From contig JAFVGZ010000023.1 in the NCBI GenBank assembly GCA_017478025.1, positions 1 to 53,144 of the forward strand: a DNA stretch of 53,144 nt. The letters run 5' to 3'. The notes below the pieces were generated by a model. The model had not been told where the DNA came from. It saw nothing but the letters and a program-made list of their open reading frames with translations, and searched no databases. Source of the stretch: Prevotella sp. Lineage in GTDB: Bacteria > Bacteroidota > Bacteroidia > Bacteroidales > Bacteroidaceae. A program made the translations under genes and the position numbers. Below are positions 6,632-16,827 of this stretch, piece by piece. Position 1 is the stretch's first letter. Every line of letters starts with the position of its first letter.

Positions 6632-6877
6632 TTATTCATTATATACTAAAGTGCCGCTTTCGTTTTCCTCAACCCATAGCAATGCGCTTTTTTCTGTTAC
6701 TCCCTCATCATTCTCAATAATGACGTTCCCAGAGTAACATATCTTATGAGAAACTGTTGGCACGATTTGACATTTTTCTAAACGGCAAGAATTCTCCGAG
6801 GAGTCTTTCAAGTCGAATTCACAGGTTTCCATTCCATCCCTTCTATTTGTAATACGTACGATTTTCTTTATTTCCAT
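6632..6877 (-). CDS. small protein of unknown function, last gene of the AAA+/radical SAM operon
   Basis: The 81-residue product (MEIKKIVRITNRRDGMETC...) has no signal or membrane segment. It is predicted to be mostly beta (VRITNR, CEFDLKD, NVIIENDEG, ALLWVEENE, TLVY) and contains four Cys. It lies 77 nt after the 102-residue gene in the same direction, so it probably shares the transcript. I do not recognise the family. A small cytoplasmic accessory or substrate protein of the operon is possible. Confidence 0.6.
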   Translation of the reverse strand: MEIKKIVRITNRRDGMETCEFDLKDSSENSCRLEKCQIVPTVSHKICYSGNVIIENDEGVTEKSALLWVEENESGTLVYNE

Positions 6878-6954
6878 TTTGTTGCTTTTCTTATTATTGA
6901 TTGCTAATCATAAATTGTATCTGTGTGTCTGAAATTATAGGTTTATTTATTCTA

Positions 6955-7263
6955 TCACTCTGACGAAATGGTGGCATCGCTTCTATTAAAGAAGTAGTGC
7001 CCATCTGTTACGATTAATCTAAAATCAACATATTTCTTCTTATTTTTTAAAATGCGTAGGAAAACCCGCCACATATCATGATCACATAAGATGTTGAACA
7101 CCTGTTTACACAATTCTTTTAATGTCTCATTAGTATTATTGATAGAAGATATGTTAGACATATTATCTACCAATTTGAAGATTTTCTCCCTTTCTTCTTG
7201 AGGAAATATGTAAACCTCATTACAAAAGGCTTTAAAGTTTTGTATCAATGCTTCATCTTCCAT
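6955..7263 (-). CDS. small helical protein of unknown function
   Basis: The 102-residue cytoplasmic protein is mainly helical in the first two thirds (ALIQNFKAFCNEVYIF, EEREKIFKLVDNM, TLKELCKQVFNILC) with a short beta-like tail (FRLIVTDGHYFF). It starts 13 nt after the stop of the AAA+ gene, so the two are almost certainly co-transcribed and possibly translationally coupled. The family is not recognised. Its position makes it a candidate adaptor of the ATPase. Confidence 0.7.
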   Translation of the reverse strand: MEDEALIQNFKAFCNEVYIFPQEEREKIFKLVDNMSNISSINNTNETLKELCKQVFNILCDHDMWRVFLRILKNKKKYVDFRLIVTDGHYFFNRSDATISSE

Positions 7264-7276
7264 ACTGAATCTAAAA

Positions 7277-8905
7277 TTAGAAATCTAACTTCCTACCACC
7301 TATAAACTCTTCATTTTGCACAACACCATTTGGAGCACTTTGGCTTAAAGAGGCACTTACAGCATTCTCGTTTGCCCATGAACGGATCTTGGTAAACTCA
7401 TCCTTACGCATTTGGCCCATTGGGACAACACGCTTGATAGTTGTCTCAAAGTCTTTCATTGACAAGTCGGCACTATTGTCACCATCTATCTTTCGTGAGA
7501 AAGACTGAATCAACGAATCAGCCACCCACGCTTCAAGTTCTGCTCCAGCCAAAACGACATCTTTTCCGAAAGTCTGTTCACCACTTAGAGATGCTAATTT
7601 GTCCAAATCAAACTTGCTTACGTCGCGCCCTAATTTAGAGATATGGATACCTAAAATCTTTTTGCGCTCCTCCGCTGTTGGGAAGTCCACAAAGAATATT
7701 TCGTCAAATCTTCCTTTGCGTAACAACTCCGGGGGTAATCCATTAATGTTGTTTGCTGTGGCAAATACAAAGACAGGAGCTGTTTTTTCCTGCATCCATG
7801 TTAGCAAATTACCAAACACGCGGGTTGATGTTCCGCCATCACCGCCTCCGCCAGAAGCACCAGACAAACCTTTCTCTATTTCGTCTATCCACAAGATTGA
7901 TGGAGAGATGGCTTCTGCTGTCTTCAATGCCATACGCATATTCGATTCTGAAGAGCCAACAATGCCTTGGAATATCTTACCCATATCCAGCCTCAACAAA
8001 GGCATATTCCAAGCTGTTGCCACACACTTAGCAGTTAATGACTTACCACAACCAGGAATACCAGTCAGCAAGACACCTTTTGGCGGTTTTACACCAAACT
8101 TCAAAGCCTCATCACCAAAGCAATGACTACGCAACTCCAGCCATTTCTTTAATGTCTGTAAGCCACCTACATCATTCAGATTCAACTGGCTATCAAAATA
8201 CTCCAAGATTCCTGTCTTCCTGATTATCTGTTTCTTTTCAGAAAGAATACCCTTCAAATCATTAGCATCAATCCGCCTATTGGAAACTAATGCCCTTGCA
8301 AAACTGTTGTCAATCTCCAGTTTCGTTAAGCCAACAGAAGCATCCACAAACTTTTCAAGCAGTTCGTTATTAACATCAATGGTAACGCCCTGCATCCCTT
8401 TATAATTGTTCAGGAAGGACGATATAATCTCCTTTACCTCTTCTCTTGATGGAAGGGGAAAATCCACTAATGTTATTTCTTTCTGCAAATCTGTCGTTAT
8501 TTCAAAAGTTGGAGCAATGATAATACAATTGCTAACATAACCTTTCTTTCTTATATTAATAGCAAAGTCTCTGAGTCGTCTGCGATTTACCGCAGGAGCC
8601 TTACTATTCAAATAGCCATCAGCATCGCAGAACACGAAAATGTTCCTACTTCCTTGCTCTTTAGCTCGATTCTCGCAGAACTTCAAAGCAGCAGTGAAGT
8701 CAAGAGTCTTGTCCTGACTTGCACTGCTACCGTTTGCAAATGTCACGCCATCAGTGGAGTTCCATATATACAACTCATGGTTAATGCTTTGAGCAATACC
8801 TTGTAGCTCTCTCAATACTCTTTCTTCCTCAAATGACTCAATTACTAAAACCGCATAGCGAGCCTTGATGTAATCTATGAGGCTTTTATTAAATGACTGA
8901 TCCAT
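7277..8905 (-). CDS. Ycf46-like AAA+ ATPase
   Basis: The 542-residue protein (ATG 8905; the in-frame codon at 8911 is TTG) matches the Ycf46 family. An N-terminal half of about 230 residues precedes a single AAA+ module. Walker A is GIPGCGKS (about 282-289), Walker B ILWIDEIEKG (about 337), sensor 1 ATANN (about 382), and the arginine-finger region LLRKGRFDEIFF (about 394). LRLDMGKIF and GSSESNMRMAL are hallmark Ycf46 segments. The N-terminal part (YAVLVIESFEEERVLREL, NIFVFCDADG, IIIAPTFE) looks like a degenerate P-loop domain. The protein ends EEFIGGRKLDF, sharing its tail with the two membrane proteins upstream. Ycf46 proteins are poorly characterised; in cyanobacteria they have been linked to inorganic carbon use. 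Here it sits with Ycf35-like and radical SAM genes. Confidence 0.88.
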   Translation of the reverse strand: MDQSFNKSLIDYIKARYAVLVIESFEEERVLRELQGIAQSINHELYIWNSTDGVTFANGSSASQDKTLDFTAALKFCENRAKEQGSRNIFVFCDADGYLNSKAPAVNRRRLRDFAINIRKKGYVSNCIIIAPTFEITTDLQKEITLVDFPLPSREEVKEIISSFLNNYKGMQGVTIDVNNELLEKFVDASVGLTKLEIDNSFARALVSNRRIDANDLKGILSEKKQIIRKTGILEYFDSQLNLNDVGGLQTLKKWLELRSHCFGDEALKFGVKPPKGVLLTGIPGCGKSLTAKCVATAWNMPLLRLDMGKIFQGIVGSSESNMRMALKTAEAISPSILWIDEIEKGLSGASGGGGDGGTSTRVFGNLLTWMQEKTAPVFVFATANNINGLPPELLRKGRFDEIFFVDFPTAEERKKILGIHISKLGRDVSKFDLDKLASLSGEQTFGKDVVLAGAELEAWVADSLIQSFSRKIDGDNSADLSMKDFETTIKRVVPMGQMRKDEFTKIRSWANENAVSASLSQSAPNGVVQNEEFIGGRKLDF

Positions 8906-8925
8906 AAACAATGATAATTAGTAGA

Positions 8926-9924
8926 TTAGAATTCCAACGTTCTACCAGATTCTATTGGAGTAGCATCGCGCAAATTACCAAGAATAGTATCACTTATATC
9001 TATCGTTCGTACATCAATGCCTTCATTTTTATCACTTACTGAAGGCTTGGGTTCATTATTTACAGAAACTCTTCTTCGAGATGCAATTTTTTCGTCTGTC
9101 TTACCTAACACAACCGCATCTAATGTTGTAAGGAACTTCTTAAAAAATAAGTCAGGATTACTTGTAAGCTTGTCATACAAGTTCATATGTAAACTCAGGT
9201 TAGTATTATCTATAAACTCTACATACAAGCAAGACGAGCTTGAAGTCAAGTTAACTACTCCTTCTGTATTAATTCGTCCAATTTTCGCAATATCTTTTAG
9301 GAATTTATTCATTAATGACCATTTTGAGCCATCATAAAAAGCAAACAATAACTTCTTGTCTGTTAGTAGCATAATGTTACTACCATCGGAGGGCTTATTT
9401 GAAGTATCAAAATTGAGATAACTTGCTTGTATTTTCTCATCGACTTCCATTCCAAGTAAATCTGAGACTTCCATATTTGCCACGAAATCTACATCTTCAT
9501 GAACAGCAAACGACTTCTGTGCAGCATATAATGCGATCAATACTGCTACCAAATAGAAAATATTCTGGACTTTGAATTCATATAATGATAAAAGGACTAT
9601 TATTATAACACCTCCTATCGTGAAATACTTGTACAACTTTGACATTTTTTCCTTTGATAACCTCCAGAAAAAGAAAGACTTCTCAGGTTTGTATTTTCCA
9701 CCACTAAAAAGGACATATGCAGCAGCAATTCCCATCAGAAGAGCTACAAAAGCAAGAATCCCCGTGATAAAACCGTCAGCAAAAATAGCTACAAGGACTG
9801 CTGTTAATATCCATATGGGAAGAGACACCCACATCATGATTTTCATCATAGACCCTTTAAAACTTCCCATTATTCTGGGATACAAATTGATTGGCTTAAT
9901 AATCGAAATTGCATTCATAACCAT
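8926..9924 (-). CDS. four-TM membrane protein with cytosolic PH-like domain (paralogue A)
   Basis: The 332-residue protein has four predicted TM helices in two hairpins (about 28-48, 52-73, 101-117, 120-137), separated by a basic loop with KYKPEKSF. A soluble domain of about 190 residues follows, opening with SFAVHEDVDFV. Strand-rich segments such as IMLLTDKKLLFAFYDG and CLYVEFIDNTNLSLHM suggest a bacterial PH-like fold (inference). A linker (SRRRVSVNNEPKP) leads to a conserved C-terminus ending ATPIESGRTLEF. It is homologous over its full length to the product of 10104-11123. Its start overlaps a remnant of a radical SAM gene, and the ATPase gene follows after 20 nt. Confidence 0.85.
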   Translation of the reverse strand: MVMNAISIIKPINLYPRIMGSFKGSMMKIMMWVSLPIWILTAVLVAIFADGFITGILAFVALLMGIAAAYVLFSGGKYKPEKSFFFWRLSKEKMSKLYKYFTIGGVIIIVLLSLYEFKVQNIFYLVAVLIALYAAQKSFAVHEDVDFVANMEVSDLLGMEVDEKIQASYLNFDTSNKPSDGSNIMLLTDKKLLFAFYDGSKWSLMNKFLKDIAKIGRINTEGVVNLTSSSSCLYVEFIDNTNLSLHMNLYDKLTSNPDLFFKKFLTTLDAVVLGKTDEKIASRRRVSVNNEPKPSVSDKNEGIDVRTIDISDTILGNLRDATPIESGRTLEF

Positions 9925-10081
9925 TTGTTTTTTGATTGTTAATATTATTTGTTTTAAAAATTCCCGTTTTAGTTATCGTTTCTTTGTTTATAACATACTC
10001 TATAATTTGTTTCGGATTGAAGTGGTTTATATCTATCCTATCAGAAGATAGAACCAACTTCTTTCCACGACAAGACTTTTT
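9896..10081 (-). pseudogene. remnant of a duplicated radical SAM gene 3' end
   Basis: Between the two paralogous membrane genes, the bottom strand keeps an open frame of 61 codons with no start. It aligns closely with the C-terminus of the radical SAM protein encoded at 11110-11649. The remnant has GKKLVLSSDRIDINHFNPK, where the intact gene has GKKFVQTSERVDIDYFKPK. Both then continue with II/IVEYV(I/L)NK and TITKTGIFK / IITKTGIFK. The frame ends at 9896, overlapping the start of the downstream membrane gene just as the intact gene overlaps its neighbour. It is the scar of a tandem duplication of [radical SAM 3' end + membrane gene]. Confidence 0.85.
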
Positions 10082-10103
10082 TCATATTAATCAATATGCT
10101 TTA

Positions 10104-11123
10104 TTACAATTCTAATACTCTGCCTGATTCAACAGGTGTTGCATTTCTGAGTTTTTCTATCACATCATTGTTGAGATCCAATCTACGTGTTTCCTTATTC
10201 TCGCTTTGCTGACTTTCGGTAGGCTTTGTATCATGATTGACAGAAACTCTACGACGAGAAGATATTTCTTCATCTACAGTTCCTAAAACAACAGCATCTA
10301 AAACATTAAGGAATTTTCTCAAAAATAGCCATGAGTTACTTGTAGCTTTATCATAGGCCTCCATATGAAGCATAATACTTGTGTTATCCGCAAAAACCAA
10401 TTTAAAGTGTATTTTTTGATGATTATAGCTGTCATCAAAGATTCCTATTTTAACTATTTCATTTATATTTTTCTTCACGAAGGCCCATTTCCCATTTTCC
10501 AAGAAAGAGAAATAGATTTTCTTATCAGAAACAATCATTAAGTTCGCATCGTCTTGGAGACTATTGTTATTTGAGGAGTCGAAATTTTGATAAGTAGCCT
10601 GAATCTTTTCACCGATCTCTACACCCACAATACTTTCTATCTCTGACGAAGTAACAAAATCCACATCTTCATGAACCTTAAAAGATTTGTTTGTATAATA
10701 AATAGCATATGCTATACCAAAGATACCTGTGAATGCATATCCCATCCATGATTGTATCTTCTGCTCTTCCATATATCCAAAATAGCAAATCATACATATT
10801 ATTATGATTGCGGCAATTCCTACGTATGTTGTAGTTTTCAATATTTTTTTGTTAGTTCCTCTTATTCCCCCAAATGATTCTTTAGGTTTATATGTTGTCT
10901 CTTTGCCAAATAAGGTATATAGAAATAGCCATGTACAAAGCAGAAATAACAACAAACATAATACCATCATAAATGTTGCACCATCGTCAAAAGCTATCTT
11001 GCAACCAAATAATGAACATATTATAATTATAGGTATAAGTCCATAGTATATCCATTTCGATTTTCTATAGCCATTTATATCACCATACATTTCCTCTCCC
11101 TTACAAATTTTAATCTGTTCCAT
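10104..11123 (-). CDS. four-TM membrane protein with cytosolic PH-like domain (paralogue B)
   Basis: The 339-residue protein has the same plan as paralogue A. Four TM helices (about 25-45, 49-72, 97-117, 124-143) have a loop with TYKPKESF between the pairs. A cytosolic domain starts SFKVHEDVDFV and contains GEKIQATYQNFDSS and LMIVSDKKIYFSFLENGKW. It ends ATPVESGRVLEL, nearly the same tail as paralogue A. The start codon overlaps the last 14 nt of the radical SAM gene, so translation is probably coupled. No enzymatic motif is seen. A membrane anchor or sensor for the neighbouring cytosolic proteins is my inference. Confidence 0.85.
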   Translation of the reverse strand: MEQIKICKGEEMYGDINGYRKSKWIYYGLIPIIIICSLFGCKIAFDDGATFMMVLCLLLFLLCTWLFLYTLFGKETTYKPKESFGGIRGTNKKILKTTTYVGIAAIIIICMICYFGYMEEQKIQSWMGYAFTGIFGIAYAIYYTNKSFKVHEDVDFVTSSEIESIVGVEIGEKIQATYQNFDSSNNNSLQDDANLMIVSDKKIYFSFLENGKWAFVKKNINEIVKIGIFDDSYNHQKIHFKLVFADNTSIMLHMEAYDKATSNSWLFLRKFLNVLDAVVLGTVDEEISSRRRVSVNHDTKPTESQQSENKETRRLDLNNDVIEKLRNATPVESGRVLEL

Positions 11124-11649
11124 AATTGTTTAATTTAAATATTCCTGTTTTTGTTATAATATCTTTATTTAGTACATACTCAACTATCAGTTTTGGCTTG
11201 AAATAGTCAATGTCGACTCTTTCAGAAGTCTGAACAAATTTCTTCCCTAAATAAGGATGTGGCAAAGATGAATCATAGCGTCCTATTATTGACAGGTCTG
11301 CGAGCTTTATGACATTCATCAAATTTCTATTTGAAATGACATCTTCATAGTGATAACCAGAATAGAGAATTGTAGTAACACGTTTATCAACACCTGTCAA
11401 TAATGATTGCATCTGGTTCGGATAATCTAGCGGTTCGCCTCCAGAAATCGTAATGCCTTCTATACTATCGTCATCGTTAATCATTTTCACCAAATCAGCA
11501 ACATCAACCAAATGCTCTTTCGTATAAGGATGCGTCTCAGGATTGAAGCATCCCTTACAATTGAACTTGCAACCCTGTACCCAGATTACCAAACGATTAC
11601 CTGGGCCATTTATGCGAGAGTGGCATATGTTATTGATTGGTAAATACAT
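11110..11649 (-). CDS. NrdG-like radical SAM protein (4Fe-4S activase type)
   Basis: The 179-residue product is a short radical SAM enzyme of the NrdG/PflA activase type. It has Cys-x3-Cys-x2-Cys in WVQGCKFNCKGCFNPETH (Cys27, 31, 34) and the SAM-binding ISGGEPLDYP (about 68). I use ATG 11649; the upstream in-frame codon 11658 is TTG and overlaps the previous stop. Such activases use a 4Fe-4S cluster and S-adenosylmethionine to abstract a hydrogen from a partner protein, classically a glycine of a glycyl-radical enzyme. No glycyl-radical enzyme is encoded in the window, so the target is unknown and may be a product of this operon. A copy of its 3' end lies at 9896-10081. Confidence 0.87.
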   Translation of the reverse strand: MYLPINNICHSRINGPGNRLVIWVQGCKFNCKGCFNPETHPYTKEHLVDVADLVKMINDDDSIEGITISGGEPLDYPNQMQSLLTGVDKRVTTILYSGYHYEDVISNRNLMNVIKLADLSIIGRYDSSLPHPYLGKKFVQTSERVDIDYFKPKLIVEYVLNKDIITKTGIFKLNNYGTD

Positions 11650-11654
11650 TGAGC

Positions 11655-12278
11655 TCAAAAACTAAGACTTAACACTTGAATAACTTCATCGTCAACTTGC
11701 ATTTCGACTTCTTGCTTCCATTCTGTTTTCAGTTCTGACGTTGGCTGAGACAGTACGTCTTCAATATCTTCCGTCAACTTTGTACAGAAGTCACCCTTCA
11801 CACCTTTTACGTCCTCTACGATCTGATTGTTCTCTGAAAGAACAGATAGAGTGTATTCAAGATTAGGGCCGAAGTTAACTATTAAGCCATTAGGTTGTTT
11901 ATTCACTTCATACCTTGTAGCATTCAAATCAAGTTTTCTCAATACTTTGTCAACAGCTACTTCAATATAAGCATTCCGAAATTGGTCTGCTATTATCTTG
12001 TCCTCGTTAGGATTGTAACCTTGATGGTGCTCTACAAAGAGTTCATACTTGTCTTGCTCAACACGACAGACAAAGATATGCCCTCCTTCTATTTCACCAA
12101 CAATAGCACGATATTGCTTACTTCCAGCATATCCTAACCTTCCTAATATTTGCTTGGCAAAGTCTGAAGAAAAATCGCAAACCATTTCAGTAGAGCACTT
12201 GATGTTCATCTTCCGAAATGCCTTCACTATGGCATCCTCACTCGTATATGAGAAATCGAATTTTGTACAATGTGACAT
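11655..12278 (-). CDS. Ycf35-like DUF1257 + DUF2997 fusion protein
   Basis: The 207-residue cytoplasmic protein appears to fuse two families that are usually separate neighbouring genes. Residues 1-115 (MSHCTKFDFSYTSEDAIVKAF..., KIIADQFRNAYIEVAVDKVL) match the DUF1257/Ycf35 plan, including the characteristic MSH start and the C-terminal 'QxYAY'-like helix. Residues about 130-190 match DUF2997: a strand with GLIVNFGPNLEYTLSVL, then VEDVKGVKGDFCTKLTEDIEDV with the family's VxGVKG-x-C. Ycf35 and Ycf46 homologues co-occur in cyanobacteria, supporting a shared job here. The gene precedes the radical SAM gene by 5 nt. Assignments are from motif memory, not a profile search. Confidence 0.78.
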   Translation of the reverse strand: MSHCTKFDFSYTSEDAIVKAFRKMNIKCSTEMVCDFSSDFAKQILGRLGYAGSKQYRAIVGEIEGGHIFVCRVEQDKYELFVEHHQGYNPNEDKIIADQFRNAYIEVAVDKVLRKLDLNATRYEVNKQPNGLIVNFGPNLEYTLSVLSENNQIVEDVKGVKGDFCTKLTEDIEDVLSQPTSELKTEWKQEVEMQVDDEVIQVLSLSF

Positions 12279-12283
12279 ACACG

Positions 12284-12400
12284 TTATTTTTCTTCTAGAA
12301 TAATACCTTTACCCTTTGTATTGGGATTTACAATTGGTTTACGAGGAGTAGGTTCAACATCGTTTTTCTCACGTTTTACTTGTTCATTTAAATTACACAT
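12284..12400 (-). CDS. tiny basic protein at the head of the operon
   Basis: An ATG at 12400 opens a 38-codon frame starting MCNLNEQVKREKNDV and ending KGKGIILEEK, 5 nt before the DUF1257/DUF2997 gene. The longer frame from 12466 begins with TTG and runs into the leader RNA, so I prefer the ATG. No family is recognised. The A-rich 3' end of this frame supplies the ribosome-binding region of the next gene. It may be a real small protein or merely leader sequence. Confidence 0.45.
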   Translation of the reverse strand: MCNLNEQVKREKNDVEPTPRKPIVNPNTKGKGIILEEK

Positions 12401-12472
12401 AGTACAGATTGCATTATCATTGGCTCTATGATTATTTATATAGTTATAGGTTAATAGCCACAACAAAAAGAA

Positions 12473-12544
12473 GTGTGAGCCTGTCAGCTAATCTAACTGA
12501 TAGGCCTTGGACTGCCCGGAAAAAAGATTAGAAACAGCTCACAC
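12473..12544 (-). terminator. terminator-like hairpin with U-tract at the end of the leader RNA
   Basis: On the bottom strand GUGUGAGC pairs with GCUCACAC, then UGU with ACA, then UAAUCU with AGAUUA, about 17 bp in all around a loop of about 30 nt, followed at once by UUCUUUUU. This is the expected form of an intrinsic terminator and would end transcription before the operon's first gene. Confidence 0.6.
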
Positions 12545-12613
12545 CCTTGTATGATGTATTGGATACAATCCACTACTATCATAACCAAGGGAAGAACGTC
12601 CAAACCTTTCCAT
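12539..12613 (-). CDS. possible 24-codon leader peptide inside the leader RNA
   Basis: ATG at 12613 opens a 24-codon frame (MERFGRSSLGYDSS...) that ends with TGA inside the 5' arm of the terminator-like hairpin. A ribosome reaching that stop would cover the hairpin base and could favour read-through. This could be chance, since the same bases are strongly paired in the RNA. Confidence 0.25.
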   Translation of the reverse strand: MERFGRSSLGYDSSGLYPIHHTRV

Positions 12614-12701
12614 TTTTCCAGATGAGTGTCCAAGTTCATCAGTTTGGAAAAAGCTAAACGCTTCCTATGTTATGTTTGCGACGGTCCATCCGTCACAGGT
12701 G

Positions 12702-12709
12702 CAAAGATA
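12702..12709 (-). promoter_or_regulatory. -7 promoter element TATCTTTG of the leader RNA and operon
   Basis: The bottom strand reads TATCTTTG followed by CACC, matching TAnnTTTG. The -33 region has TTTC and not TTTG. It is the only good leftward promoter I found upstream of the operon. Confidence 0.55.
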
Positions 12710-13390: not shown

Positions 13391-14635
13391 TTATTGTCGG
13401 GCGTTATTACGCATTTGATTGAATACCGATGAGACGAGAGATTGGAAACGAGTCTCACAATCCTGACGTATGGCGCTCTCTGGGATATTGGGATATTTCT
13501 CCGATAGACGATTGGCTATCTGGAGAGTATGATTGTGAAACGACGTTGTGGCATCAGCCCAGGCTTTGCCAGAGGAAGGCGTTTGAGGTGGAAAGACGGA
13601 ATCGCAGAATGTAACAATCGTTGCCCTATAGGCTTCATCAATCATGCGGTCTGTATCATCCTTTAATTGTGTCTTTTCATCTTTCTCTATGACCGGCTGG
13701 GGTTGTTTCTCTATTGCAGACAGAGATTGTTTGTCTGCATATACAGATGTCATCCGGTTTATTATTTCATCAGAATGCAAGGATGAGCCTTCAGGAAGCA
13801 CAGAAGAGTCTCGCTGGACAGGTGTGTTCTCATTCTTTGACATTTCATTCTCCTCTTGCAGATGGGGCAACAAGATGATGAATAGAAACGACAGAACGGC
13901 TACGAAAAAAAATACCGTCACATAGCGGAGATACCCTCTTCCGCGACTAATGTCGTGTTTGATTTCGTCTATGGATTGATAACGCTCCCGAGGGCTTTCC
14001 GCTATACATCGCGCTATCACCTTATTATATATATAGTGCTCAGGCAAGGATTCTATGATTTTACCAATAGCATAGATGTCGGTACGTTCATCTGTCGCCT
14101 CCTCTCGCAACTGCTCCGGGGCTGCATAGCCTTTCGTATGCCCCTGGGTGTCGGTAAAGGTATCGGTGTAGCAACAACCCAAGTCTATCAGCTTAACATC
14201 ATTGTCTATACGGGTCAGCAGGATATTGTCGGGTTTCAAGTCAAGATGTAGCACCTGATGGGCATGAAGATATTGCACTACATCCAACAACTGAAGGATA
14301 AATTTCCTCGTGTTCTTCTGATTAAAGTAAGATGGATTGCAGGTAATCCTCTCGGTAAGCGTCTCCCCGTCCACATATTCCATCATAATGCCATCATCTG
14401 TCTTTGAGATATAGCGTGGCAATCCTTGATGTTCTAAGCGATAGCCCGTCTCAAACTCCTTTTGGAAAGCCTCTTGATAACGAACATCGTTTACGCATTC
14501 TGCTTTCAGACGTTTGAGGAAATGCAGTTTACCGTATAACTTTACGCTATAAGTATCGCTGGTGGCACCTTGAAAGTCTAACTGTTCAATAGCGCCATCA
14601 GACAATTGAAGATTGGTAAACTGTGAGGATTCCAT
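13391..14635 (-). CDS. membrane-anchored Ser/Thr protein kinase
   Basis: The 414-residue protein has an N-terminal Hanks-type kinase domain (about 1-230), one TM helix (about 237-257, VTVFFFVAVLSFLFIILL) and a C-terminal extracytoplasmic region of about 155 residues. The catalytic loop HLDLKPDN (130-137) carries Asp132 and Asn137, the magnesium loop is DLG (151-153) and the APE motif is AAPEQ. A classic glycine-rich loop is hard to see; Lys41 or Lys43 in HFLKRLK is the likely ATP-binding Lys. The C-terminal part has no PASTA repeats and is of unknown fold. Its ATG overlaps the stop of the upstream gene (TAATG), which argues for translational coupling. Confidence 0.88.
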   Translation of the reverse strand: MESSQFTNLQLSDGAIEQLDFQGATSDTYSVKLYGKLHFLKRLKAECVNDVRYQEAFQKEFETGYRLEHQGLPRYISKTDDGIMMEYVDGETLTERITCNPSYFNQKNTRKFILQLLDVVQYLHAHQVLHLDLKPDNILLTRIDNDVKLIDLGCCYTDTFTDTQGHTKGYAAPEQLREEATDERTDIYAIGKIIESLPEHYIYNKVIARCIAESPRERYQSIDEIKHDISRGRGYLRYVTVFFFVAVLSFLFIILLPHLQEENEMSKNENTPVQRDSSVLPEGSSLHSDEIINRMTSVYADKQSLSAIEKQPQPVIEKDEKTQLKDDTDRMIDEAYRATIVTFCDSVFPPQTPSSGKAWADATTSFHNHTLQIANRLSEKYPNIPESAIRQDCETRFQSLVSSVFNQMRNNARQ

Positions 14636-15189
14636 TATCTCATTACTTTTATGGAGGAAAGACCAGATACACGACCAGCCGTAAACTGTCCGAGAGAGTC
14701 ACCATTACGCCATACCTGAGCGACCAACAAAGGATGATGAAGAATGAAGTTCTGTATCTCTACTTCATCTCCAACTTGCAGTTTGCTATTCTGGCTTTCT
14801 ACCACTTGATAATGCTCATTGCCCTGATACTCAAACACCAATTTACGGTCAGGAAGATAAGTGACCTGCACACAGTCGCCCTTTTGCAAAGAGTTAGAGC
14901 GTAATTCGTCAGAGAAGTTGTTGAAGTCAGAATTTCCCTGATCCTCTATCTTCATTACTTCATCCCAATGTGCAAAGCCTAAATAGTGAGCTATAGCATC
15001 GAGCGTACTCGTGTGTGGTTGGCGCTCATCCTGGGCAAAGCCGAGCAATCGCTTGAGAGTGGTAGCACCTATGCGAACTCCTGTCTTGCTCTGTATGTCG
15101 AGTGACAGAAGTTCGCAGTCAGATGGCAAGCGCAAGTCGTTTTCGGACTTGCGCTTTAATAGTTCTATAACATGGAATGGTAGTTTCAT
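14635..15189 (-). CDS. putative DNA-binding protein with C-terminal beta domain, partner of the kinase
   Basis: The 184-residue product (ATG 15189; the further upstream codon 15207 is TTG) has a helical N-terminal region. FHVIELLKRKSENDL, SKTGVRIGATTLKRLLGF and TSTLDAIAHYLGFAHWDEV look like a helix-turn-helix module of the type that reads 'conditions under which a domain pattern repeats'. A beta-rich C-terminal domain follows (GDCVQVTYLPDRKLVFEY, QVGDEVEIQNFI, AQVWRNGD). The start lies 30 nt after guaA, and the stop overlaps the kinase start. It may be the regulator or substrate of the kinase. The family is not named with certainty. Confidence 0.72.
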   Translation of the reverse strand: MKLPFHVIELLKRKSENDLRLPSDCELLSLDIQSKTGVRIGATTLKRLLGFAQDERQPHTSTLDAIAHYLGFAHWDEVMKIEDQGNSDFNNFSDELRSNSLQKGDCVQVTYLPDRKLVFEYQGNEHYQVVESQNSKLQVGDEVEIQNFILHHPLLVAQVWRNGDSLGQFTAGRVSGLSSIKVMR

Positions 15190-15219
15190 CTTATCACTCT
15201 CATTCAAAGGGATTTCTAC

Positions 15220-16827
15220 TTACTCCCACTCAATTGTGGCTGGTGGCTTTGAGGATACGTCATAGCAGACGCGGTTTACGCCGCGCACCTCGCGAATGAT
15301 GCGGTTTGAGACATCTGCCAAGAAATCGTATGGCAAGTGAGCCCAGTCAGCTGTCATAGCATCACTTGATGTGACGGCACGCAGGGCTACGGGATTCTCG
15401 TATGTGCGCTCGTCGCCCATGACGCCTACGGACTTTACATCTGAGAGCAATATCGCTCCTGCCTGCCATATTTGGTCATAGAGAGATACCTCAATCTCAC
15501 CGTCTTTCATGTCTGCCGGCACACCTGCAGCAAGTACTCTGCGTGCCTCTTCGCCTGATAGACGAACCTTATAGTCGCGCAGGGCCTGTATGTAAATGTG
15601 GTCAGCATCCTGGAGTACACGTACCTTCTCTGGGGTTATGTCGCCCAGTATGCGTACTGCAAGGCCCGGCCCTGGGAATGGATGACGCGTGATGAGGTGT
15701 TCAGGCATACCCATCGAGCGGCCTACACGACGTACCTCATCCTTGAAAAGCCACTTGAGGGGTTCGCAAAGCTTCAGTCCCATCTTCTCGGGCAGACCAC
15801 CCACATTGTGATGGCTCTTTATGACCTTGCCCGTAATGTTGAGTGACTCGATACGGTCAGGATAGATAGTTCCCTGTGCCAACCAGCAAGCTCCTTCTAT
15901 CTTCTTGGCCTCAGCCTCAAAGACATCTATGAAACCGGCACCTATAATCTTGCGTTTCTTTTCTGGTTCCGAAACACCAGCAAGCTCAGAATAGAATTTC
16001 TGCGATGCGTCAACACCTATGACATTGAGTCCAAGTCCCTCATAATCGCGCAACACATCGGTGAACTCGTTCTTGCGCAGGAGGCCGTTGTTGACAAAGA
16101 TGCAGGTGAGGTTTGAACCGACAGCCTTGTTGAGCAATACAGCTGCCACGCTACTGTCAACACCACCTGATAGGCCGAGGATTACACGATCGTTGCCCAA
16201 CTGCTCACGAAGTTCCTTTACGGTCTGCTCCACGAAGCTATTTGGCGACCAATCCTGACGGCTGCCGCAGACATCTACCACGAAGTTCTTGAGCAACTGA
16301 GTACCGTCTATTGAGTGATAGACCTCCGGATGATACTGCACGCCCCATATCTTCTCATTATCAGCAGCATATGCAGCATACTTTACAGTAGAAGTGGAAG
16401 CGATGCAATGGAACCCTTCAGGCAGTTTCGTAATGGTGTCACCATGTGACATCCACACCTGCGAATTGGGTTGGAAGCCTTTGAGCATGGGGTTGTCCTG
16501 CTCCATATACTCCAGGTTGGCACGACCATACTCACGAGTGCCTTCTGGCTCCACGTTACCTCCGAAGGTGTATGCCATGAGCTGGGCACCATAGCAGATG
16601 CCGAGGATAGGATATTTGCCTCTAATCTGATTGAAATCGAGTTTGAATGCCCGCTCTTCATATACAGAATAGGGCGAACCGGAGAGGATGACACCAATCA
16701 CATCGGGGTCATCAGCCGGGAATTTATTGTATGGCATGATTTCGCAGAAGGTGTTGAGCTCACGCACACGGCGTCCGATGAGCTGCGTGGTCTGCGAACC
16801 AAAGTCAAGAATGATGATTTTTTGCAT
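15220..16827 (-). CDS. guaA: GMP synthase (glutamine-hydrolysing)
   Basis: The 535-residue enzyme converts XMP to GMP with glutamine and ATP, the last step of guanine nucleotide synthesis. The N-terminal glutamine amidotransferase domain shows [13 protein letters not shown] with the catalytic Cys and GVQYHPEV with the His. The ATP-pyrophosphatase domain has [13 protein letters not shown]. The C-terminal dimerisation domain ends [16 protein letters not shown], the universal GuaA tail. Length is slightly above the usual 510-525. It is the first gene of a likely unit guaA, DNA-binding protein, Ser/Thr kinase. A hairpin lies in the leader region at 16864-16886. Confidence 0.97.

Follow-up and report, generated by a model that had tools for sequence, protein, structure and literature searches.

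In a 53,144-nucleotide stretch of DNA from Prevotella sp. (contig JAFVGZ010000023.1; the whole stretch is called the window here), we identified a C-terminal tail, R-x-[ILVFM]-[DE]-[FLMIVY], on an AAA+ ATPase and on two membrane proteins encoded beside it, and we found across related loci that the ATPase and partners of unrelated families end in this common linear motif. The tail is the feature that ties the parts of the locus together, and it was missed by the initial annotation of this DNA. We propose, with a confidence just short of even, that a CDC48-type AAA+ ATPase, a DUF1257-like/DUF2997 adaptor, an NrdG-like radical SAM (rSAM) protein, and one or more tailed partners form a four-part module that acts as a protein-control system. 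Very probably, the tail serves in recognition and has one receptor in common, for which the DUF1257-like/DUF2997 protein is the likeliest candidate; the ATPase and its partner would in this way be gathered on one scaffold. We know of no mechanism for DUF1257 (Ycf35), DUF2997, or Ycf46-type ATPases. The genes and motif copies concerned are as follows.

11655..12278, minus strand: DUF1257-like + DUF2997 fusion protein, the proposed adaptor (207 aa)
11110..11658, minus strand: NrdG-like rSAM protein (182 aa, with CxxxCxxC and SGGEP)
10104..11123, minus strand: TM1, a partner with membrane and PH-like domains (339 aa, C-terminus ..ESGRVLEL)
10107..10121, minus strand: C-terminal tail R-V-L-E-L of TM1 (from sequence reading and motif counts)
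10173..10187, minus strand: internal second motif copy R-R-L-D-L in TM1 (from the alignment of membrane partners)
9944..10066, minus strand: sequence read as the remnant (3' part) of a duplicated rSAM gene, between TM1 and TM2 (123 nt)
8926..9924, minus strand: TM2, a partner with membrane and PH-like domains (332 aa, C-terminus ..ESGRTLEF)
8929..8943, minus strand: C-terminal tail R-T-L-E-F of TM2 (from sequence reading and motif counts)
8995..9009, minus strand: internal second motif copy R-T-I-D-I in TM2 (R306 is nearly invariant in the partner alignment)
7277..8911, minus strand: AAA+ ATPase (544 aa from TTG, C-terminus ..GGRKLDF)
7280..7294, minus strand: C-terminal tail R-K-L-D-F of the ATPase (from sequence reading and motif counts)

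Tails were counted in the best 80 of 450 bacterial and the best 80 of 133 viral loci, ranked by ATPase alignment, together with the window, L004–L006, and L009–L011 (L numbers denote fetched loci). The duplicates L013 and L092 were dropped from the tail counts, and L010 was additionally dropped from the tables of DUF and rSAM content. Open reading frames (ORFs) were picked for these counts regardless of tail, and the presence of rSAM was judged within ~8 kb, several contigs stopping sooner. Because the motif was derived and counted on the same loci, and related loci were counted repeatedly, the p-values, including one of 6e-9 obtained by locus for tailed partners, are descriptive only. In the window, 3 of the 47 non-overlapping ORFs of at least 80 aa end in the motif, namely the ATPase, TM1, and TM2. 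At bacterial loci with rSAM, the ATPase was tailed in 55 of 60; the remaining five were L009, which has no tail, three ATPases with one extra Leu, and one with two extra residues. Tails were also present on 57 of the 824 other ORFs at these loci, spread over 45 loci, with 50 tailed among 163 genes lying within two places of the rSAM gene versus 7 among 663 genes farther away (descriptive p 5e-31). Where rSAM was absent, other ORFs were tailed in 2 of 289 cases at bacterial loci (n = 26) and in 3 of 1424 at viral loci (n = 69); the viral loci with rSAM (n = 10) contained one tailed ATPase and no tail in 206 other ORFs.

At internal positions of these proteins, the motif has a frequency of 0.05–0.1%. 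Among the 163 rSAM neighbors, it was found 50 times at the end, twice at offset 1, and 11 times at offset 22, with 0 or 1 occurrence at each of the other offsets up to 59. In 15 of 16 PH-type partners, the final 60 residues hold a further copy of the motif, which mostly stands ~22 residues before the end. The 55 ATPase tails are encoded by 47 distinct nucleotide 15-mers in which all six Arg codons are used, and 60 partner tails by 56 distinct 15-mers (the latter come from a separate choice of ORFs that favored tailed ones, and the L054 partner appears only there). Because the 15-mers are so varied and every Arg codon is used, the pattern shows that selection acts on the tail peptide and not on the DNA. 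Between the last conserved W-A element of the ATPase and its tail lies a linker of 19–48 residues (55 sequences).

The partners that carry the tail are not of one kind. Elsewhere, proteins with helix-hairpin-helix (HHH_3) or ankyrin Pfam matches replace the PH-membrane type, and the PH-membrane and helix-hairpin-helix families are unrelated (hhalign 5%). In Rhodococcus, for example, the ATPase ends in GGRTFEF and a helix-hairpin-helix membrane protein in PGRRLEF. The initial annotation inferred a membrane-tethered machine; in the window both partners are indeed membrane proteins, but a PH-membrane partner is not found at every locus. Two arrays, of six proteins in L031 (69-6175) and of four in L029 (6051-10347), stand near one rSAM gene and one ATPase; every protein in them ends in R[RKH][LI]E[LFV], and one has ankyrin repeats by Pfam. 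On two cyanobacterial plasmids (L007, 13127-15465; L178, 10873-15663), an NrdG-like rSAM gene has neighbors with another common tail (VWDL, IWEL, or IWDF at the end), which may be a separate instance of tail sharing. A Paenibacillus polymyxa plasmid (L181, 6715-10937) encodes an untailed ATPase, DUF1257, DUF2997, rSAM, and two proteins ending in SRVIHF and KRVIRL.

We found that bacterial loci with both rSAM and DUF1257/2997 encoded a tailed partner in 44 of 50 cases, compared with 3 of 35 outside this combination: 1 of 10 loci with rSAM only (L039), 1 of 14 with the DUF proteins only (L045, a 6.9-kb contig), and 1 of 11 with neither (L032). The ten rSAM-only loci comprise seven from spirochaetes, two ~4-kb contigs, and L039. 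The ATPase tail is distributed differently. Taken in its strict or core form, it was present in all 14 bacterial loci with DUF proteins and no rSAM and in 59 of the 60 rSAM loci, while the ATPase was untailed in 10 of the 11 loci with neither (the exception, L087, lies near a contig end). In bacteria, then, the ATPase tail goes with DUF1257/2997 or rSAM and does not depend on rSAM by itself. Since it persists on bacterial ATPases that have the DUF proteins as their sole company, we favor the DUF1257/2997 protein as the receptor.

These ATPase counts, from loci with the DUF proteins alone and from loci with neither, also speak for docking only, in which the tail would be an assembly motif with a role like that of the HbYX tails of proteasomal ATPases, bound by the DUF1257-like/DUF2997 protein or another subunit, and rSAM would have some other substrate, for instance a small molecule, a protein of the cell, or the adaptor itself; the internal repeats in PH-type partners likewise suit a binding motif. 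What docking alone accommodates less well is that tailed partners are nearly confined to loci with rSAM (45 of 60 versus 2 of 26 without it) and are encoded close to the rSAM gene. We regard it as a possible, if somewhat doubtful, account, and give it nearly the same weight as modification of the tail by rSAM. For such modification, we infer a role of rSAM at the tail because tailed partners occur almost only with rSAM, near its gene, and the assembly yielded no glycyl-radical protein. Tentatively, rSAM may act on the tail motif and alter the Arg, or a position close to it, on the tails of both ATPase and partner. This alteration would serve as a switch for docking or for threading by the ATPase, and its likely sites would be the acidic residue of the tail and the Arg. 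In its full form, which we hold more cautiously still, rSAM could modify a portable C-terminal tag on the ATPase and on unrelated partners, and the modified tag could be read by the adaptor that decides the remodeling target of the ATPase; if true, this would give Ycf35/DUF2997 proteins their first molecular role. As the initial annotation proposed, the ATPase may remodel, and rSAM may modify, a shared partner.

A role of rSAM as an ordinary activase (NrdG or pyruvate formate-lyase activase) for a glycyl-radical enzyme encoded elsewhere, present here by chance, is very improbable. NrdG (TIGR02491) is indeed its best named family, at 98.1 bits, but this score is under the curated cut-off of 126.1 bits; moreover, rSAM recurs near this ATPase across phyla, and Gly_radical (PF01228) had no match in the assembly (84.7% complete), in agreement with the initial annotation, which had seen no glycyl-radical enzyme, while the same scan was positive in 3 of 14 control genomes.

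Several results weigh against a receptor and an enzyme that both act through the tail. The motif was derived from the loci in which it was counted, and these loci are related, so the counts are not independent events. ATPase tails occur without rSAM in range in 11 of 26 bacterial and 13 of 69 viral loci. The viral loci speak against a strict receptor rule: where both DUFs were present without rSAM, 14 of 20 ATPases lacked even the core tail; 12 strict viral ATPase tails were found with neither DUF nor rSAM; and where rSAM accompanied both DUFs, 6 of 10 viral ATPases were untailed. In spirochaetes, seven loci that lack the DUF proteins combine rSAM and a tailed ATPase with no strictly tailed partner. 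Six loci with rSAM and DUF proteins (L009, L014, L015, L054, L075, and L077) have no partner by the count used, although in L014 a neighbor ends one residue past the motif and was left uncounted. Finally, the tailed partner of L032, with no rSAM or DUF protein in range, adjoins an untailed ATPase.

In eight spirochaete loci (L004, L055, L062, L066, L068, L071, L075, and L077), the ATPase and rSAM genes stand beside contractile injection system-like genes, annotated as such in L004 and recognized by eye in the others. The spirochaete ATPases end in R[KQ]LE[MV], except that L075 has other last residues.

The block in the window consists of seven intact genes on the minus strand, spanning 12278-6632 from coordinates and spaced, in order, by –4, –14, 179, 14, 13, and 77 bases (negative values are overlaps). 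This bears out the initial description of same-direction genes with tiny gaps or overlaps; the gap of 179 bases separates TM1 from TM2 and contains the rSAM remnant. The block is AT-rich as described (GC 0.362 in 6632-12709 versus 0.493 across the remaining window). The ATPase, whose start is more likely the ATG at 8905 than the listed TTG, has intact Walker motifs (GIPGCGKS and ILWIDE), again as first reported, and matches Pfam AAA at 102.3 bits (cut-off 21.2). The best solved sequence relatives of its profile are CDC48/p97 chains, and no model named Ycf46 matched it in the profile libraries searched; that name came from the initial annotation. It is 39% identical over ~520 aa to cyanobacterial plasmid ATPases encoded near DUF1257/DUF2997. 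The rSAM assignment held as well, with matches to Fer4_12 (93 bits) and Radical_SAM PF04055 (36.4 bits, cut-off 29.5) and with the three Cys and GGEP invariant across a 7-row alignment.

The fusion protein, described at first as DUF1257 plus DUF2997, kept the second domain assignment in full and the first in weakened form. DUF2997 (PF11211) scored 24.9 bits, just over the Pfam cut-off of 24.1, and was matched by 12 of 13 members of the fusion-protein family at E 0.01 or better; the DUF1257 Pfam model was matched by none of the 13 at E 0.01, the window protein included. In a profile comparison, three annotated DUF1257 proteins nevertheless align with the N-terminal half, starting at its residue 1 (hhalign 82%, E 1e-5), and we file this half as DUF1257-like only. 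Detection of DUF1257 by iterative profiles is partly circular, as the seeds were chosen by us; the hhalign comparison is a separate test. The structure model of the fusion protein has a pLDDT of 83.

TM1 and TM2 had been described as two four-TM proteins with a beta domain. They are membrane proteins, and we correct the description in that they are one family, duplicated. TM2 is modeled with long helices at its N-terminus and a PH-like domain behind them, its residues 146-269 being predicted to adopt a PH-domain fold of seven strands and a C-terminal helix, by structural match. The two are 39% identical; the remnant between them has 72% identity over 123 nt to the rSAM gene (E 1e-16) and, at the protein level, 65% identity over 37 aa; and L011, a relative in another genus, has a single membrane protein. 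For these three reasons, we read the pair as a tandem duplication of rSAM plus partner in which one rSAM copy has decayed.

The conserved co-occurrence whose absence would have spoken against the initial annotation is present: loci that combine AAA+, rSAM, and DUF2997 were found in several phyla. Between the window and L011, identity is 91% for the ATPase, 89% for the fusion protein, 67% for rSAM, 39–46% for the membrane proteins, and 37% for the kinase. The fusion protein was present in 2 of 151 genomes of the family and, in the phylum sample, in a single genome out of 395, the window's own; the ATPase (E 1e-120 or better) was present in 4 of the 151. Relatives of the ATPase reach 65–68% identity (best segment) in Pseudomonas and 53–56% in rumen Alphaproteobacteria, and an rSAM gene lies near its plasmid copies in Treponema, Paenarthrobacter, and Rhodococcus. 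Because the module is rare in its own family and phylum, yet has close ATPase relatives in Pseudomonas, in Alphaproteobacteria, and on plasmids, it is patchily spread and probably moves laterally.

Other plasmid rows were seen with related genes. An Enterobacter plasmid (L010, 1296-11179) has a VWA protein, a related ATPase, a DUF1887-CARF protein, a PP2C phosphatase, a kinase, and hypothetical proteins, and a Pseudanabaena plasmid (L173, 580-8737) has GrpE, Hsp70, DUF1257, an ATP-binding protein, a hypothetical protein, DUF2997, and a related ATPase. Plasmids of Gamma-, Beta-, and Alphaproteobacteria (L179, L180, and L008) encode a large AAA-domain protein, a PIN-domain protein, a hypothetical protein, an AAA ATPase of another type, and an NrdG-like rSAM; no shared tail was seen in these three rows.

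The remaining genes of the block and its neighbors on one side are the following.

6955..7263, minus strand: 102-aa accessory protein (no family above cut-off)
6632..6877, minus strand: 81-aa protein (no family above cut-off)
13391-14635, minus strand: Ser/Thr kinase, a neighbor and not core (Pkinase 93 bits, Pfam)
14635-15207, minus strand: regulator, a neighbor and not core (beside the kinase gene)

The 102-aa ORF has one relative among the fetched loci (L012, 34% over 64 aa); the 81-aa ORF and a small upstream ORF (12284-12466) have none there. In L011, the position after the ATPase that the 102-aa and 81-aa proteins take in the window is occupied by a 249-aa protein (15534-16283), which matched neither Pfam nor PADLOC at the thresholds applied. 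The window module sits just downstream of a guaA - regulator - Ser/Thr kinase arrangement (13391-15207). Relatives of the kinase and regulator are also found near the module in L011, L015, and L018, and the same guaA - regulator - Ser/Thr kinase row stands without the module in L175, L176, and L177. Because the pair occurs beside guaA without the module, we treat it as a recurrent neighbor and not as core.

The patchy spread of the fusion protein and the presence of related loci on plasmids would also suit anti-phage defense, with the ATPase and rSAM sensing or blocking phage. Weak matches point the same way, of the ATPase to the IetA/IteA model and of rSAM to the prokaryotic viperin model; they fall far below the NCBIfam cut-offs, however (49.4 of the 510 bits required and 20.3 of 180, respectively). 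Of 166 proteins found in the flanks, 107 were scanned, with no control set. Candidate PDC-S01 models were matched by two of the 107, at E 4e-179 in the best case, and mad3 by two, one of these (L024, 9857-11782) near the ATPase on the other strand. On the other side, none of the 17 PADLOC models that match the flanks at 1e-8 did so in more than 2 of the 107 proteins, some matches look housekeeping by name (SspA, DndA, ZorA/ExbB), the Pfam matches are of many ordinary kinds, and related ATPases, like the DUFs themselves, are encoded on many viral contigs. The flanking genes therefore lend little support to a defense role, which we consider unlikely. Because the flanks show little sign of defense islands and the regulator-kinase pair is not specific to the module, we propose instead a membrane-linked role, in which control of a membrane-associated client would be the likely use.

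Through the shared motif, these uncharacterized genes lead to a binding or modification event that can be tested, with one peptide, one candidate receptor, and one candidate enzyme. Literature on Ycf46 and Ycf35 concerns mostly plastid genomes, and passages on Ycf46 occur in PMC12172450, PMC10954446, and PMC5874918. Our searches found no paper describing the module, none that links rSAM with DUF2997, with conflict systems, with SpoVK, or with NCBI product names, and, on rSAM with contractile systems, only two titles on other subjects. Should the rSAM step prove real, the C-terminal tag of an AAA+ machine would be subject to radical modification, of which no example turned up in the literature searches made.

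In cyanobacteria, the DUF2997, ycf35 (DUF1257), and fed7 genes lie side by side, according to a passage in PMC4284462; the cluster described there resembles the module in having DUF1257 and DUF2997 genes beside the gene of a small iron-sulfur protein and differs in that this protein is a ferredoxin, not rSAM. The related ATPase (39% identity) is encoded near DUF1257 and DUF2997 on two cyanobacterial plasmids, but these ATPases end in ..LDIRQ and ..LDIRS. The spirochaete contractile injection clusters have an ATPase of the same family and rSAM beside the injection genes, whereas no such gene was seen among the window ORFs next to the module. Like NrdG, its best family match, and pyruvate formate-lyase activase, the module rSAM is a single-domain enzyme with CxxxCxxC; unlike them, it scores below the NrdG cut-off and has no glycyl-radical protein found in its assembly. 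Proteasomal ATPases dock through C-terminal HbYX tails, which are likewise short conserved C-terminal motifs on an AAA+ ATPase, but the module tail has other residues (R-x-hydrophobic-acid-hydrophobic) and is common to unrelated partners. Finally, some radical SAM maturases act on a tagged peptide or protein, their genes standing beside genes that share a short conserved segment. The module resembles them in that the enzyme gene adjoins genes with a common short segment, and differs in that this segment is the C-terminus of full-size proteins, including an AAA+ ATPase.

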